Shown here: piece after piece, positions 6,054 through 14,711 of the stretch
Layout of the letters: each line of letters starts with the position of its first letter
Numbering within the stretch: position 1 is the stretch's first letter
Source of the DNA: a virus
Reading direction: 5' to 3' (one strand)
Length of the DNA: 27,049 nucleotides
Virus record (IMG/VR): IMGVR_UViG_3300050821_017831
Location: 1 to 27,049 of that record
The notes under the pieces: generated by a model
Told to the model about the DNA's origin: nothing
Database searches by the model: none
What the model saw: the letters and a program-made list of their open reading frames with translations, nothing else
Made by a program: the position numbers and the translations under genes

Positions 6054-6605
6054 CTATGAGCGCCGCCTTCGGCCGCGCTTCCCACGCTTACGTTTCTTCA
6101 CGCAACTCACGTTTACCAAAACCAAGTCGCTTTCGTCAATTTCCGCTGGGGCGACCCCACCTAGCCACGGAACAAAAACGATAGCTCGACCTCTGTTCAG
6201 CAAGCGATCGAACACACCATAAAACCCGGCCAGGGCGCCGCTGCCGCCGACGGTGACGCGGTCGCCGCGCTTGAAGCGCGCCGGTATGTCGACGGTCGGG
6301 AAGACGTCGCCACCATCGCAGCGCTGGACGAGCGCGCCGACGATCCCGTCGGGGACGACCTCGGGCGGGAGGTTCTTGGGGACCACGTAGCTCACGCGGT
6401 CGATCGCTATGACGTCGTAGTAGTCGGCGTGGCGAACGAAGACGTAGCCGGGGAACGCTGGCCGCAGGCGCTCGAAGACACGGCCGCGTGTCACGGACAG
6501 GCTGCGGACCTTGAACAGGATGTGGGCGAGCGAACGCCTCGCCATCTCCGCGGAGACGGCGTTCTCCAGGTTCGGCGCAGTGACGGCAAGCGCCCAGTCG
6601 GTCAT
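6054..6605 (-). CDS. NusG-like transcription antitermination protein (NGN + KOW)
   Basis: A 183-aa protein. Residues 1-~100 resemble the NusG N-terminal domain (MTDWALAVTAPNLENAVSAE, then PGYVFVRHA, the conserved [FY]PGY[VI]F[VI] strand). Residues ~109-162 match a KOW domain (ARFKRGDRVTVGGSGALAGFYGVFDRL, AIVFVPWLGGVAPAEIDESDLVLV). An extra Lys/Arg-rich tail (169-183) could bind RNA or DNA. NusG paralogues such as RfaH and LoaP bind RNA polymerase and allow it to pass pauses and terminators in chosen operons. Here it may act on long leftward or rightward phage transcripts. ATG 6605 fits the domain start; the GTG at 6719 would add a segment encoded by the inverted-repeat arm. A promoter candidate lies at 6779-6807. 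Confidence 0.8.
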   Translation of the reverse strand: MTDWALAVTAPNLENAVSAEMARRSLAHILFKVRSLSVTRGRVFERLRPAFPGYVFVRHADYYDVIAIDRVSYVVPKNLPPEVVPDGIVGALVQRCDGGDVFPTVDIPARFKRGDRVTVGGSGALAGFYGVFDRLLNRGRAIVFVPWLGGVAPAEIDESDLVLVNVSCVKKRKRGKRGRRRRS

Positions 6606-6703: not shown

Positions 6704-6727
6704 GGTGCACGTGGTGCACGTGGTACA
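6704..6727 (+). repeat. Left arm of perfect 24-bp inverted repeat
   Basis: This 24-nt arm is the exact reverse complement of 6854-6877. It is built of alternating GTGCAC and GTG units followed by GTACA. It lies in the 5' leader of the NusG-like gene, downstream of the promoter candidate, and so would be part of that mRNA. Confidence 0.9.
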
Positions 6728-6752
6728 GGGTCGCAGTATATAGGTCTATTTC

Positions 6753-6832
6753 ATTCTACCTCTAGTAGGTAATATACGCGTATAAGTTTGTGTGGAAAAA
6801 GCAACAAGATACGCGCGTAGGTAGAGTAGAAT
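6753..6832. repeat. Inner imperfect inverted repeat with central palindrome
   Basis: ATTCTACCTCTA (6753-6764) pairs with GGTAGAGTAGAAT (6820-6832) with one bulge, nested between the 24-bp arms. Near the centre is the 12-bp palindrome TATACGCGTATA (6773-6784), followed by a related ATACGCGCGTA (6810-6820). The stretch is AT-rich amid GC-rich sequence, as seen in origins and strong regulatory regions. Confidence 0.65.
6779..6807 (-). promoter_or_regulatory. Candidate promoter for the NusG-like gene
   Basis: On the leftward strand TTGTTG (6807-6802) and TATACG (6784-6779) are separated by 17 nt, a fair sigma-70-type match inside the AT-rich spacer between the inverted-repeat arms. Transcription would start near 6772 and read through the left arm into the NusG-like gene. 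The -10 hexamer overlaps the TATACGCGTATA palindrome, which could be an operator. Confidence 0.45.
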
Positions 6833-6847
6833 TTTAGGATTAGTGCA

Positions 6848-7126
6848 TCACCGTGTACCACGTGCACCACGTGCACCAACACGCAGGCGGAACGACCAAT
6901 ACCCGCCACCTAGGCGAGACGCAGCTATCCTGTTCGAGCGCCGCAGGGCTGCTCGGATTGCCCGGACCTTAAACTCTCCTCCGTTCCTGCCACCCTTGTA
7001 TCGGACCTGAGGGACCTCAGCGTCTATGGCTCCGGCGAGCTCTCGATCCTCCCACGCTTCGATCATCACGTCGGTCGCGTCGAAGGATCTCGCTCCAAAC
7101 ACGCGCGTTAGAACTTCGATCAGCAT
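6848..7126 (-). CDS. Small protein coupled to the primase-helicase, possible winged-helix domain
   Basis: A 92-aa protein starting at ATG 7126, overlapping the primase stop by one base (TGATG), so probably translated by re-initiation. The sequence TDVMIEAWEDRELAGAI, then FKVRAIRAALRRSNRIAASRLGGGYWSFRLR has a helix-helix-wing look, like small DNA-binding domains found at the C-terminus of phage primases. The last ten residues (VGARGARGTR) are encoded by the right arm of the inverted repeat and are probably a by-product of that DNA element. Family not recognised. Role inferred: replication accessory factor, perhaps binding the adjacent repeat. Confidence 0.65.
   Translation of the reverse strand: MLIEVLTRVFGARSFDATDVMIEAWEDRELAGAIDAEVPQVRYKGGRNGGEFKVRAIRAALRRSNRIAASRLGGGYWSFRLRVGARGARGTR
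6854..6877 (-). repeat. Right arm of perfect 24-bp inverted repeat
   Basis: Exact reverse complement of 6704-6727, 126 bp away. It lies inside the 3' end of the 92-aa gene, where it encodes the terminal Gly-Ala-Arg repeats. Only RNA transcribed through from the primase genes would contain both arms and could fold into the full 24-bp stem. Confidence 0.9.
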
Positions 7127-9336
7127 CAGGTTTTCTTCCTTTCCGTGTACTCGTTTTTTTCAATCCTTACCCTGCAAGCGTTCGCTGCGGTGGACCGTTC
7201 TTTCGGTGTCAGCGAGATTTTGGCATAGATCGTGTGTCGTGTTTGCTTGATCTTCCATCTCTTGTCTTTTGCGTCGCTGTTATGGACTGCGACATATCCA
7301 CATCGCTCGAGTCTGTGAGGGATAGCTCGCGCGTTTCGCCTGTCCGCTAACCACGCTGCGAATAACCCATCGGCGCTGTTCTGGATCTCGAGAAGCGTGA
7401 GTGCATCAGGCCCTACACCTTCCCCTAAACTTAACTTCCAAAAACCGAATTTTTCGATCGCGTCCGCCAGCTCGTCCTCCTCCGGCGCGCGGTTGGAGTT
7501 GGCGATGTCCCAGAACGCCTGCGTCCGCTCTGGCGGCGCCGACGGATCCCACCGGCTGATGTCGTGGTCCTGGAGGTAGGCGAGCACGTGCTCGGCGCCG
7601 CCGTTGTCGTACCATCCCCAGATGAAGTTCCAGTAGTCGTCGTCGAAGTCCTCCTTCTTCAAGTCCGACCACACCACGTAGTGCCGCCTGTCGTCGGCCG
7701 GCAAGTAAACGCCGTCGTGCTTGTAGTTCGTCGTGATGATCATCCCGAGGACGTTGAAGATGTCGTAGGCCTTCGTGTGCTTCTCGTTGATGCGCAGCGT
7801 GTTGGGCGGTACTGCCAGGATAGTCTTCGTCCGCTCATAGAACGTGAACCGATTGACCTCACCGAGGTCGCGCGCCTCGCTGACGCGCAGGATCACGCAC
7901 TTGAGGTAGTCGTTGAACGACTCGAGCAGGTTGGTTGGCGACACCTCGCGGAAGTTCCACGAACCGACCGCGCGCTTGACCGGCTCGAACAGCGTATCCT
8001 TCCCGATCCCGGGCGCACCGCCGATCAATAGTGCGTGGTTGATCTTCTCACCGGGCCGCTGCACGCGGTGCGCGAGCCATGACACGACGTGCTGACGCTC
8101 TTCCGCGCTGAGCAGCATGTCGACGTGGTCGAGCCACGGGCCAACCAGCGTCGGGTCTCCTCGCCGCAGCCGCGGCGGACGGTACATGTTGAAGCTCTTG
8201 ACGCCATAGCGTTCTACCCATCCGTCGTTAGCTATCAAGCGATTCTTGATCACCATGTCCTGGCCGGGTACCCACGTCATCTGCTCGACGCTCCTGCGGC
8301 TGGAGAGCCAGACGTGCGGCTTGATCCTCTTCGGCTCGTCGTCAACCACCACCACCATCGGCGGCAGCCGAGCGTCGACGGACGCTGCCGGCCACAGGTC
8401 GCGCGTCGGCACGAATATGAAACTGTTCATTGGGGCAAGGGCCCAAAAGTCCTCGACGGTGATCCGGTCCCAGCCCGGGCACGCCTCGTTTGCCATGTAG
8501 AAGATCGTGCCGGCGCCCACCTCCGTCGGCGGCGACCGGTGGAACGACTCCCAGCGCTCGCGCGTGTTGGCCGCGTCGTAGCCGCGCCACTTCTGCGACC
8601 ACGTGTCGAACGCGTCGAAGCCCGCCTCGCTGCCCCCGGTGGCGCGGTATACGGCCATCCCCATCCTGCACCACTCTTGCCACGACGGGGTCTCGTTGGG
8701 GATGACGTCGAGCGCCGCGACGATCCGCTCGATGTCCGCGACGCTGCTGTTGACCTCGGCGTCGCCGCTGTTGTCTCGCCGCTGGCGCTGGCGCGACGAG
8801 GCCGCGACCGCCGCGTCGACCAGCCACCGCGGCGCGTCGACTATCGCGTTGTCGTTGAGCCACGCGTAGGCGCGTCCTCGGCGCACGGTCGGCGGGGCCA
8901 CCACCATGCCGCCCTGCCCGCGCACGTCGAGCCCCGGCGCGACGGTCGACGTCGAGTTGCGGATCTCGTCGGTGAAGCTCGCCGGCCACCCGAAGTACCA
9001 GTGGATCGAGCCCGACGGCGATATCGCCTGGAGCGTCGGCGGCAGCGCGCCGTGCTCCGCCTCCAGCGCCGCCATCGCGGCGATGCCGTCGACGTTGTGC
9101 CCCTGCGGCGTGTCTGCCTCGACCACCCAGAACCCGCTGACGTGGCCGGTCGGCAGCCCGATGCCAGCCTGCGGCCAGCGCTGCCAGTCCTCCTTCACCG
9201 TGGCAGCATCGCGCGTCTTACCCCACTTGTCGCCGCTGTACTCACGTGATTTGTAGGACTTTTTCGAATTTGGCGGAACCGGAAATACCTCCCACCCTCG
9301 TGCCACGTAGCTGAGTGCCGCCTCGAGTGGGGTCAC
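7126..9336 (-). CDS. Primase-polymerase / SF3-type helicase
   Basis: A 736-aa replication protein. Residues ~5-180 form a bifunctional primase-polymerase domain (PF09250-like): motif I VVEAD (71-75, E73 and D75 where most relatives have two Asp), motif II GSIHWYF (109-115, H112), motif III GLDVRGQGGMVVAPP (135-149, D137). Residues ~195-290 fit a PriCT-2 linker (SWQEWCRMGMAVYRATGG, WESFH). Residues ~405-560 are the DUF5906/SF3-like ATPase: Walker A GGAPGIGKDT (439-448), a Walker B-like strand VILRVSEARD (481-490) and sensor ITTN (534-537). The protein should unwind the origin and synthesise primers. GTG start with AAAGGA at 9343-9348, 6 nt upstream. First gene of the leftward transcript. Confidence 0.92.
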   Translation of the reverse strand: MTPLEAALSYVARGWEVFPVPPNSKKSYKSREYSGDKWGKTRDAATVKEDWQRWPQAGIGLPTGHVSGFWVVEADTPQGHNVDGIAAMAALEAEHGALPPTLQAISPSGSIHWYFGWPASFTDEIRNSTSTVAPGLDVRGQGGMVVAPPTVRRGRAYAWLNDNAIVDAPRWLVDAAVAASSRQRQRRDNSGDAEVNSSVADIERIVAALDVIPNETPSWQEWCRMGMAVYRATGGSEAGFDAFDTWSQKWRGYDAANTRERWESFHRSPPTEVGAGTIFYMANEACPGWDRITVEDFWALAPMNSFIFVPTRDLWPAASVDARLPPMVVVVDDEPKRIKPHVWLSSRRSVEQMTWVPGQDMVIKNRLIANDGWVERYGVKSFNMYRPPRLRRGDPTLVGPWLDHVDMLLSAEERQHVVSWLAHRVQRPGEKINHALLIGGAPGIGKDTLFEPVKRAVGSWNFREVSPTNLLESFNDYLKCVILRVSEARDLGEVNRFTFYERTKTILAVPPNTLRINEKHTKAYDIFNVLGMIITTNYKHDGVYLPADDRRHYVVWSDLKKEDFDDDYWNFIWGWYDNGGAEHVLAYLQDHDISRWDPSAPPERTQAFWDIANSNRAPEEDELADAIEKFGFWKLSLGEGVGPDALTLLEIQNSADGLFAAWLADRRNARAIPHRLERCGYVAVHNSDAKDKRWKIKQTRHTIYAKISLTPKERSTAANACRVRIEKNEYTERKKT

Positions 9337-12107: not shown

Positions 12108-12261
12108 GATCGAGCGGGTGCTGGTCGAGTTCTTCGAGGAGGACGACGACTACATCACGTGGACGAACGAGGCGGGTGAGTGGGAGATGCGGCACGTCGA
12201 GACCGGGGATCGCACCAACCTGACGACGTTCGCGAAGGAGCTCGCGGAGTGGCAGCCGTGA
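12088..12261 (+). CDS. Small acidic protein, paralogue of 20284-20457
   Basis: A 57-aa protein from GTG 12088, too short for most gene callers. It reads MSLTWSEIERVLVEFFEEDD, ending GDRTNLTTFAKELAEWQP. Another 57-aa protein at 20284 has the same plan: W-x-E-x-ER-x-LVEFF, an acidic middle, a G-R-T-x-x-L/S-T-x-x-A-x-x-LA end. That similarity and the overlaps at both ends (20 nt with the previous gene, ~13 nt with the methyltransferase) support it. Function unknown. Confidence 0.65.
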   Translation: MSLTWSEIERVLVEFFEEDDDYITWTNEAGEWEMRHVETGDRTNLTTFAKELAEWQP

Positions 12262-14711
12262 GACCGAAAGCGATCGGCGTCTACATCTTCGCCGGCGGGT
12301 TCACCCTCGGCGTCAAGAGGCACTTCGACGTTCACTGCGTCCTCGAGGAATCGAACTACGGGGTCAAGACCGCGCGCCAGAACCAGCCGGAGATCCCCGT
12401 GATCGTCGGCGTCAAGAACTGGCCGCTAGCAGACCTCAAGGTCCACGAGTGGGACCTGATATACGGGAACCCTCCGTGCGCCGCGTGGAGCCAGGCAGGC
12501 TCTGCCACCAAGAAGGGCCGCAAATATGACTCGAGCCCGCTGGTAGCCTGCACCGAGCGCTACTTCACCCTCCTCGAAGAGCTGAGGCCGAAGGTCTGGG
12601 CTTGGGAGTCCGTGCAGCAGGCCTGGAAGGTCGGCGAGGACTTCGTCCGGCGCCTGGCAGAACGCGCCCGCGCCCTTGGCTACTCAACGACGATCTTCCT
12701 CCACGACGCACAATACCTGAACGTCCCGCAGTCTCGTCGCCGCATGTTCATGATCTGCCACCGCGTCGAGGGACGGATCGACCTGCCGGACTTCACGAAG
12801 GTAACTACGTTCGACGAGGCGCTGCGCGGGCTCAACGACCGCGGCGTGCCGCTCGAGAAGAACATCGGGCAGCACCGCTGGCTCCTCGGCGAGCTCAGGC
12901 CCGGCGAGGAGCTGCGCCAGGCATTCATGCGGCTGACGCCGCCCGACCAGATCAAGACCGGCGAGCGCGGCCAGACGGTCGGGCGCCCAGCGTTCACCAT
13001 CAAGCGCGCCAAGGCTGACCGCCCCGCCTACGTCGTGATGCACGAGATGGTTCACCCTACGGAGCCTCGCGGGCTATCGATCAAGGAGCTGGCGATCCTC
13101 TGCGGCTACCCCGCCACGTACGATTTCGTCGACGCCAACGACGCGGGTCAGGTGGGAAGAGGCGTGTGCCCGCCGGTCGGCGAGTACCTGGCCAGGAACG
13201 TGGCTCGCGCGGTCGCGGCCGACGTCGCAGTCGAGGCGCCGACCTTCACCCTGGTCGACTATACGACGCCCGAAATTAGGCGCGAGCGGCTGCGCTACCA
13301 CGAACCAACGGAAAAAGATACGGCCATTAATCCCCCTGATTACGGGCCGCATAATACATTAATTAAAACCGAGGCTAAGCCCAAGAAGTCTAAGCGAGAT
13401 CGGAAATTAATCTCCGATTCAATTTCAGCAGAAACCGAGACTGCGACACCAGTGTCGCCTGTTCTGGCCGACTCGAGCCCGCACGACGGCGAGGGCTCCG
13501 GACGCTATATTCGCCGCCTCCTGCGCCACGGGGTGAGCGGCGACCAGGTCCTCGAGCTCGTCCACGCCCACTACGAGGGCAGCAAGGCGTCCAAGGCGGA
13601 CATCGCCTGGAACCGCGGCCGCATGCGCAAGGAAGACGCGGCCCGCGGCACGCTGCGCGTGGAGAGCACATCCCGAACGAAAAGTAAACCTCACGAGGGT
13701 GACCTTTTTGACGTCCCTCGTGTACCTATGCCTGCGAAGACCGAGGCTCACGTCCCGAGCGAAGAGTGCACCGCCGACCAGACGTCCTCGGCGGAGCCGT
13801 GCGATACGGCTAGGGACAACCCAACCAGCGCGCGGCAGGAAGCGGACGAAGCGGGGAGAGGAACGGCCCCGTTGCCCACAGCCGGCGGACGCCGACGCAC
13901 GCCACCCACAAGCCCCATTAGCGATGGGGAACCGTCTGGTGAGCTAAGCGATAGGCCGGGCGCGCTGGCGCACGTCCCCCAGCCGTCGCGCTTTCGCCGG
14001 GGCGTCGACCCGGAGCGTGAGTTCGACAGGACGAGCCTCCGCGCCAACAGCCACGGCCAGTGGATTCACCGCGACTACGGCGCGCACTTCTTCCGCTGGG
14101 GCTTCGCGGGCCGCTTCGTGACCAACGAGACAGACGTCCTCGACGTCGGCTGCGGCCCGGACGTGATGATGATCCATGCCTTGACGATGCCGCGCAACCA
14201 GGTGCCGCGGTCGTACGTCGGCGTCGACCTCAACCGCGAGCCGAAGAAGCACCCCGCGCGCCAGTGGGCGACGCTGCGATGGGAGTTCAACTTCACCGAG
14301 CGCGGCGATGAGCTCAATCAGTTCGATCTTGTAACGTGCTTCGAGGTCCTCGAGCACATGCGTAAGGCTGACGGGCTACGGCTCCTTGAGGTGTTGCGTC
14401 GGCGCCTGCGCCCGTCGGCCACCCTCCTCCTGTCGACGCCGGTGTTCAACGGCAAGGCAGCGGCAAATCATTTAATGGAATGGCAAATCGACGAGCTCAA
14501 GGCAGCGGTCGAGGCCGCCGGCTTGGCCGTCGAGCGCCGTCACGGAACTTTTGCCAGCCAGGGAGATATCCGTCGCGCCGCCAGCGCGGCCGAGCTAGAC
14601 GTCGTCGAGCGGCTGAGCGCCTACTACTCGGGTGAGGTCCTGGCCTGCTTCCTGGCTCCGCTGTATCCGGATGCCAGCCGCAACAACGTGTGGGTGCTGT
14701 CCAAAAAATGA
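12249..14711 (+). CDS. Fused cytosine-C5 DNA methyltransferase and class I SAM methyltransferase
   Basis: An 820-aa protein from GTG 12249 (AAGGAG at 12235-12240, 8 nt upstream; GTG 12258 also possible). Residues ~8-325 are a C5 DNA methyltransferase: motif I IFAGGFTLG, motif IV GNPPCAAWS with catalytic C77, motif VI ESV (E120) instead of the usual ENV, motif VIII PQSRRRMFM (~160), motif X PPVGEYLARNVARAV. A linker of about 270 residues includes a charged helical segment (GSGRYIRRLLRHGVSGDQVLELVHAHYEGS is split here only to name its start and end: GSGRYIRRLL to HAHYEGS) and Ser/Pro-rich stretches. Residues ~590-820 form a second SAM methyltransferase with DVLDVGCGPD (~629-638) and DLVTCFEVLEHM. 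The first half methylates cytosine in DNA; the second half's substrate is unknown. Confidence 0.88.
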   Translation: MAAVRPKAIGVYIFAGGFTLGVKRHFDVHCVLEESNYGVKTARQNQPEIPVIVGVKNWPLADLKVHEWDLIYGNPPCAAWSQAGSATKKGRKYDSSPLVACTERYFTLLEELRPKVWAWESVQQAWKVGEDFVRRLAERARALGYSTTIFLHDAQYLNVPQSRRRMFMICHRVEGRIDLPDFTKVTTFDEALRGLNDRGVPLEKNIGQHRWLLGELRPGEELRQAFMRLTPPDQIKTGERGQTVGRPAFTIKRAKADRPAYVVMHEMVHPTEPRGLSIKELAILCGYPATYDFVDANDAGQVGRGVCPPVGEYLARNVARAVAADVAVEAPTFTLVDYTTPEIRRERLRYHEPTEKDTAINPPDYGPHNTLIKTEAKPKKSKRDRKLISDSISAETETATPVSPVLADSSPHDGEGSGRYIRRLLRHGVSGDQVLELVHAHYEGSKASKADIAWNRGRMRKEDAARGTLRVESTSRTKSKPHEGDLFDVPRVPMPAKTEAHVPSEECTADQTSSAEPCDTARDNPTSARQEADEAGRGTAPLPTAGGRRRTPPTSPISDGEPSGELSDRPGALAHVPQPSRFRRGVDPEREFDRTSLRANSHGQWIHRDYGAHFFRWGFAGRFVTNETDVLDVGCGPDVMMIHALTMPRNQVPRSYVGVDLNREPKKHPARQWATLRWEFNFTERGDELNQFDLVTCFEVLEHMRKADGLRLLEVLRRRLRPSATLLLSTPVFNGKAAANHLMEWQIDELKAAVEAAGLAVERRHGTFASQGDIRRAASAAELDVVERLSAYYSGEVLACFLAPLYPDASRNNVWVLSKK

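Follow-up and report, generated by a model that had tools for sequence, protein, structure and literature searches.

The segment 6704-6877 is very probably a replication origin of the phage, at which the Rep protein would initiate replication from iterons arranged as two mirrored triplets, as judged from its sequence and from related loci. By analogy, it is most likely an iteron origin like those of the PICIs and of pRN1/BIP-1. We favour this reading because the layout recurs 3′ of rep genes and parallels the origin proposed for BIP-1, and because the repeat is independent of the neighbouring NusG-like gene. The window, i.e. the whole stretch of 27,049 bases analysed here, is an IMG/VR virus record with capsid, terminase and DNA polymerase genes; the origin reading covers this 27-kb fragment only, and a further origin elsewhere is possible. 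The initial annotation had listed an origin adjoining the primase gene among several functions of the repeat, and this proposal now finds strong support in comparison and in closely parallel published cases (PMC4234260, PMC6092414, PMC7581432).

The anatomy of the element can be read directly (Table 1). The perfect 24-bp inverted repeat described initially is borne out, with 6704-6727 and 6854-6877 being reverse complements at 24/24 positions, while dinucleotide shuffling of the window (60 shuffles) gave maxima of 11-16 bp for perfect inverted repeats with a spacer ≤400. Extended inward with a single mismatch, the arms leave 118 nt between them. Each arm consists of three ~9-bp units placed head-to-tail, GGTGCACGT twice followed by a variant unit (GGTACA...). 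The element overall therefore comprises 3+3 nine-bp units with 118 bp of GC 0.38 in between. A small ORF that overlaps the rep stop comes first, and the element starts 249 bp past this stop, thus lying immediately 3′ of rep as in PICI-type modules. No second copy of the arm pair is present in the virus record, and scans of viral contigs and bacterial genomes for the exact 19- and 20-base arm cores returned tandem arrays or coding coincidences and no mirrored pair adjoining rep. The 9-bp unit GTGCACCAC was also encountered in tandem arrays of 2-6 copies, many apparently intergenic, in various unrelated bacteria, namely in three contigs of one Actinomycetota MAG (L051, L058, L064), Streptomyces (L060, L068), Burkholderia (L052) and Caballeronia (L053/L054).

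Table 1. Features of the candidate origin and its flanking genes (positions in the window)
Feature	Position	Strand	Description
Left iteron array (arm)	6704..6731		+ strand reads GGTGCACGT GGTGCACGT GGTACAGGG(T); partner of 6850-6877, 27/28
Left-arm 9-bp direct repeats	6704-6712, 6713-6721
Right iteron array (arm)	6850..6877		- strand reads GGTGCACGT GGTGCACGT GGTACACGG(T); inside 3′ end of 92-aa ORF
Right-arm 9-bp direct repeats	6852-6860, 6861-6869, 6870-6878
AT-rich spacer, proposed DNA-unwinding element	6732..6849		Basis: GC composition
DnaA-box-like site	6791..6799	-	TTTTCCACA; sole TTWTNCACA match in the window
Weak nested inverted repeat plus two palindromes	6748..6832		Repeat search and sequence
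Rep, 736 aa	7126..9336	-	Prim-Pol aa 7-171, PriCT_2 207-282, SF3-type DUF5906 helicase 438-551 (Pfam)
92-aa ORF	6848..7126	-	Overlaps rep stop by one base
NusG-like gene, downstream neighbour	6054..6605	-	PHROG 6386 E 3e-9; Pfam NusG E 0.001, below cut-off

The spacer is AT-rich, as had been claimed, with GC 0.381 at 6732-6849 vs 0.646 for the window, and the lowest-GC 120-bp stretch of the 27,049 bases (GC 0.375) starts at 6731. This minimum, the DnaA-box-like site and the 9-bp build of the arms had all escaped the initial annotation. The 12-bp palindrome was found again (TATACGCGTATA, 6773-6784), and a second one, TACGCGCGTA, lies at 6810-6819; the nested inverted repeat is present but weak (6748-6761/6819-6832, 14 nt, 79%). 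The two palindromes resemble operator sites, and no further copies of them stood out in the window. As for the leftward promoter candidate, a site TTTCCA-16-TATATT does exist (- strand 6798-6771, 9/12), but at chance level, 1 being found vs 0.8 expected. Read-through RNA is indeed predicted to form the long stem (-105.7 kcal/mol, z -5.6, - strand), but so would any inverted repeat, and the DNA of the stretch likewise folds above chance. Consequently, the idea that the arms discriminate read-through from new transcripts is not supported. Rfam contains no match for the element. The possibility of an intrinsic terminator was rejected, as no terminator-like site (stem then T run) occurs at the element.

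Rep joins a Prim-Pol to an SF3-type helicase, with Pfam E-values of 3e-35 for Prim-Pol, 9e-19 for PriCT_2 and 7e-9 for DUF5906, and its residues 373-557 match the solved phage primase helicase chains 6k9c/6k9e (E 6e-7). Its C-terminal region is the proposed iteron-binding domain; the model of residues 570-736 (pLDDT 41) was too poor for revealing a winged helix or for a fold search, and the alignment with the Vibrio-type Rep C-terminus is weak (27%). For the 92-aa ORF, Pfam and PHROG searches gave no match and structure prediction was uninformative (pLDDT 42). The right arm supplies the codons for the C-terminus of this ORF, GARGARGTR, with one 9-bp unit each for Gly-Ala-Arg, Gly-Ala-Arg and Gly-Thr-Arg, a feature also overlooked initially. 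The origin array may have grown within the coding region or, alternatively, the 92-aa ORF may have extended into the array.

On the - strand, Rep, the 92-aa ORF and the repeat are followed by the NusG-like gene, a small ORF, an HNH-type gene, TerS, TerL and a capsid gene, and other genes run rightward from ~9.5 kb. The turning point of the cumulative GC skew is near 9.5 kb, at this divergence of transcription, and not at 6.8 kb, which taken alone counts against the origin reading; since skew follows gene direction here, it is of no help in locating the origin. Among the other genes, an 843-aa open frame (12180-14711) appears by eye to encode a DNA cytosine methyltransferase with a further methyltransferase-like part behind it. 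Another record, L004 (IMGVR_UViG_3300021168_000631), carries TerS, TerL and capsid 100% identical to those of the window and represents the same or a near-identical virus.

To place this layout among related replicons, we took from phage records, plasmids and bacterial genomes (prophages) 39 loci whose Rep gene is of the Prim-Pol and/or DUF5906 type, a count that excludes the window itself and the TerL-derived locus L017. Spaced inverted repeats were scored with +1 for a match and -2 for a mismatch, at spacers of 15-250, and taken as clear at a score of at least 13. A clear repeat was observed in 19/39 loci. In 8 of these 19, the centre of the strongest repeat falls 0-500 bp beyond the 3′ end of rep, where 1.02 would be expected (P 2.9e-6); for the equally long stretch on the 5′ side, the number is 2 (P 0.27). 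The eight are Vibrio phage 1.093.O, Rhizobium phage 16-3, Proteus plasmid pW47-1, a Citrobacter plasmid and four loci in bacterial genomes (L149, L160, L164, L165). Since 20/39 Rep loci have no comparable inverted repeat, the 3′ layout is common, not universal. Moreover, iteron clusters with inverted repeats stand 5′ of the primase-helicase gene in a Thermaerobacter plasmid (L103, 2798-2903) and in a prophage-type locus (L163, 2095-2341); the origin can thus sit on either side of the gene.

The composition of the arms in these relatives echoes that of the window. Mixed-orientation clusters 3′ of rep are built of GTATCCGAA in Vibrio phage 1.093.O, of GCGTGACAA (13 copies) in Rhizobium phage 16-3 and of GGTTACAAC (10 copies) in a 9-kb Proteus plasmid. 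Other units (GCGGGACAA; GTCTGG type; CCATACA) occupy this place in viral contigs encoding a Rep with 66-69% identity to the 16-3 protein; therefore, the layout persists although the sequence of its unit varies. The 16-3-type Rep has its Prim-Pol joined to an AAA_25 (RepA-like) helicase, not to SF3, and the layout is consequently not tied to SF3. In L149, the closest Rep relative (40% over helicase and C-terminus), one arm is made of three 9-mers, GGGCACGTC GGGCGAGGT GGGCACGGT, mirrored by ACCGTGCCC ATAGTGCCC AGCCCGCCC across a 67-bp spacer of GC 0.40, and the element begins 7 nt past the rep stop. L160 and L167 likewise have three units per arm, and the arms of BPP-1, a relative of phage BIP-1, read TTGCCTCGT TTGCCTCGT (two per arm) plus mirror around an AT-rich centre. 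In BPP-1 (L170, 1310-1666), an ORF annotated on the opposite strand as bbp28 lies between rep and the iteron arrays and may not be a gene. Period 9 was the strongest among periods 6-18 in 12/17 repeat regions and well above shuffled sequence in 16/17 (the exception being L017 (14)), these regions having been chosen for repeats and not for period, so that the test is not independent of the choice.

Does the repeat accompany Rep or the NusG-like gene? In BPP-1, rep is followed by the repeat, an endonuclease gene, TerS and TerL, and the interval from the repeat to the terminase genes holds no NusG-like gene. In L149, by inspection, no NusG-like gene was seen in the next 4 kb of ORFs behind the repeat. 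Conversely, in the TerL relative L010 a methyltransferase-like gene is directly followed by a NusG-like gene, yet a long repeat is lacking. The repeat therefore goes with Rep, and on this sequence comparison the NusG-like gene is not required for the element. A signal for a NusG paralogue (LoaP/RfaH-like) should accompany the NusG-like gene or its target operon, which the repeat does not do. NusG-like genes 5′ of terminase genes were seen in several related tailed phages (L017, 8294-8845; L010, 6499-7176; L072, 20-523); they are distant relatives of that of the window and form a recurrent neighbour of packaging genes.

Close relatives keeping both flanking genes were not found. Exact-peptide scans of viral contigs gave no match for the window Rep, a single distant contig, L072, truncated at that gene, for the NusG-like protein, and three contigs for the polymerase, none with a Rep match. 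A DNA pattern search with the Walker motif gave no match, and 39 TerL-related loci included none with the Rep of the window. A lead to a Thermus phage (BLAST match in an O-like gene) was dropped, its E of 0.09 being at chance level.

Other functions of the repeat have to be weighed against an origin. The initial annotation had suggested an antitermination signal for the NusG-like protein: the 24-28 bp stem of the Rep-operon transcript would recruit this protein for LoaP-like antitermination through the late operon. The folding of the - strand RNA agrees with this, and in a second phage, L017, a replication ATPase gene likewise precedes a repeat cluster, a NusG-like gene, TerS and TerL, in this order and with a different repeat sequence. 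Yet the L017 cluster, about eight CGTCCCA copies in both directions, is itself iteron-like, tandem 9-bp arms are unnecessary for an RNA stem and fit protein-DNA binding, and the above-chance folding of the DNA and the empty Rfam search also speak against an RNA signal. As the repeat tracks Rep in the comparison of BPP-1, L149 and L010, antitermination is not supported and we hold it to be improbable. It is just as improbable that the segment is instead a promoter/operator region, in which palindromes and arms would serve as operators of a leftward late promoter in the spacer. The 9/12 promoter-like site, the two CG-centred palindromes and the position at the boundary between replication and structural genes would suit such a region, but the site is not above the chance expectation, and BPP-1 and Vibrio phage 1.093.O share the boundary position with iteron arrays 3′ of rep. 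Such a function may also coexist with the origin.

A short AT-rich stretch between perfect inverted repeats also recalls a miniature inverted-repeat transposable element or another mobile-element remnant. This is very unlikely and already largely excluded: the borders (...CTCCGC / AACACG...) lack a target duplication, no second pair exists in the record or among the exact arm-core matches in viral contigs and bacterial genomes, one arm lies within an ORF, and elements of this layout but unrelated sequence are found 3′ of other rep genes. The least probable explanation, to which we give hardly any credence, is slippage, by which a 9-bp unit built of palindromes expanded by chance and the mirror pair is accidental. 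Tandem GTGCACCAC arrays outside Rep loci in scattered bacterial genomes would agree with it, but slippage yields a single array, not a mirrored pair matching at 27/28 positions and repeating even the variant inner unit, nor would it account for the recurrence 3′ of rep (P 3e-6).

The data show the anatomy and composition of the element, the domains of Rep and the return of this layout 3′ of related rep genes; from these we infer, for an iteron origin, Rep binding, ring loading, melting, priming and the direction of replication along the following lines. Rep, encoded at 7126-9336 on the - strand, would bind the six ~9-bp iterons of the two mirrored triplets, probably via its C-terminal domain. 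Two SF3 helicase rings would be loaded by the triplets, one on either side of the AT-rich 118-bp spacer and directed towards each other; the spacer would melt, perhaps with help from host DnaA (6791-6799). Priming on the opened strands would then fall to the Prim-Pol domain, and replication would start bidirectionally; the phage encodes its own family A polymerase, which would be available for primer extension. The trinucleotide GTG recurs in the arms, which is compatible with the GTG start preference of the pRN1 protein (PMC4234260). Since mutation of the GTG left pRN1 replication going (PMC4234260), we place no weight on it.

On balance, we lean slightly towards a broader proposal: mirrored arrays of about three ~9-bp iterons with an AT-rich spacer, 3′ of rep, could be a general origin type of primase-helicase replicons (phages, phage-plasmids, prophages), joining the BIP-1/pRN1 ‘stem-loop’ with the two-set layout of PICIs. 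That the unit sequence varies freely among relatives at constant ~9-bp spacing and mirror symmetry would suggest that two helicase rings are loaded in a fixed geometry. An unexplained repeat of an uncultured phage becomes a testable candidate origin, and mirrored ~9-bp repeat arrays just behind rep provide a simple rule for finding origins in primase-helicase phages and small plasmids.

Among known systems, pRN1 requires for replication a ~100-bp stem-loop 3′ of its rep gene, and the same stem-loop origin was proposed for phages BIP-1/BPP-1/BMP-1, with no iterons reported there (Berkner et al. 2014, PMC4234260). The element shares with these a large inverted repeat with a loop, 3′ of a Prim-Pol + SF3 helicase gene. 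The domain order Prim-Pol, PriCT_2, SF3 is that of the BIP-1-type Rep (checked in BPP-1), and the gene order from rep to TerL is that of BPP-1, the window phage having extra genes. Whereas the paper describes a stem-loop without iterons (PMC4234260), the arms of the window and of BPP-1 are tandem 9-bp units, and the spacer described for pRN1 is 58 nt vs 118 here (PMC4234260). This suggests that the BIP-1-type ‘stem-loop’ origin is an iteron origin, its mirror symmetry being merely hairpin-like.

The pri-rep-ori modules of PICIs combine two iteron sets with an AT-rich region, a layout described as unique to these islands (Fillol-Salom et al. 2018, PMC6092414). We claim this PICI-type layout for the element, not PICI identity: unlike PICIs and SaPIs, the carrier is a phage bearing virion genes and not a satellite island, its Rep has an archaeo-eukaryotic Prim-Pol domain and its iteron sequence is other. 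The loci collected here show the layout outside PICIs, which suggests that it is wider spread. Both this point and that on BIP-1 bear on two-ring loading of SF3 initiators. What may be new is the view that the stem-loop and PICI descriptions refer to a single origin type, with the ~9-bp mirrored array as the form common to both.

SaPI origins also lie directly downstream of rep (summarised in PMC7581432). In the putative origin of SCCmec, direct repeats are likewise found downstream of the initiator helicase gene, and the C-terminal domain of this helicase, Cch2, was shown to bind direct repeats (PMC7581432); its iterons differ in being 5-nt, and its primase-polymerase is separate, with no Prim-Pol fusion (PMC7581432). 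The alpha protein of phage P4 unites origin binding, SF3 helicase and primase in one protein acting on an iteron-based ori (summarised in PMC4234260), a likeness by description and not by sequence, its primase being of the Toprim type. By these analogies, the element fits the pRN1/BIP-1, PICI and Cch2/SaPI parallels and would be a known kind of origin.
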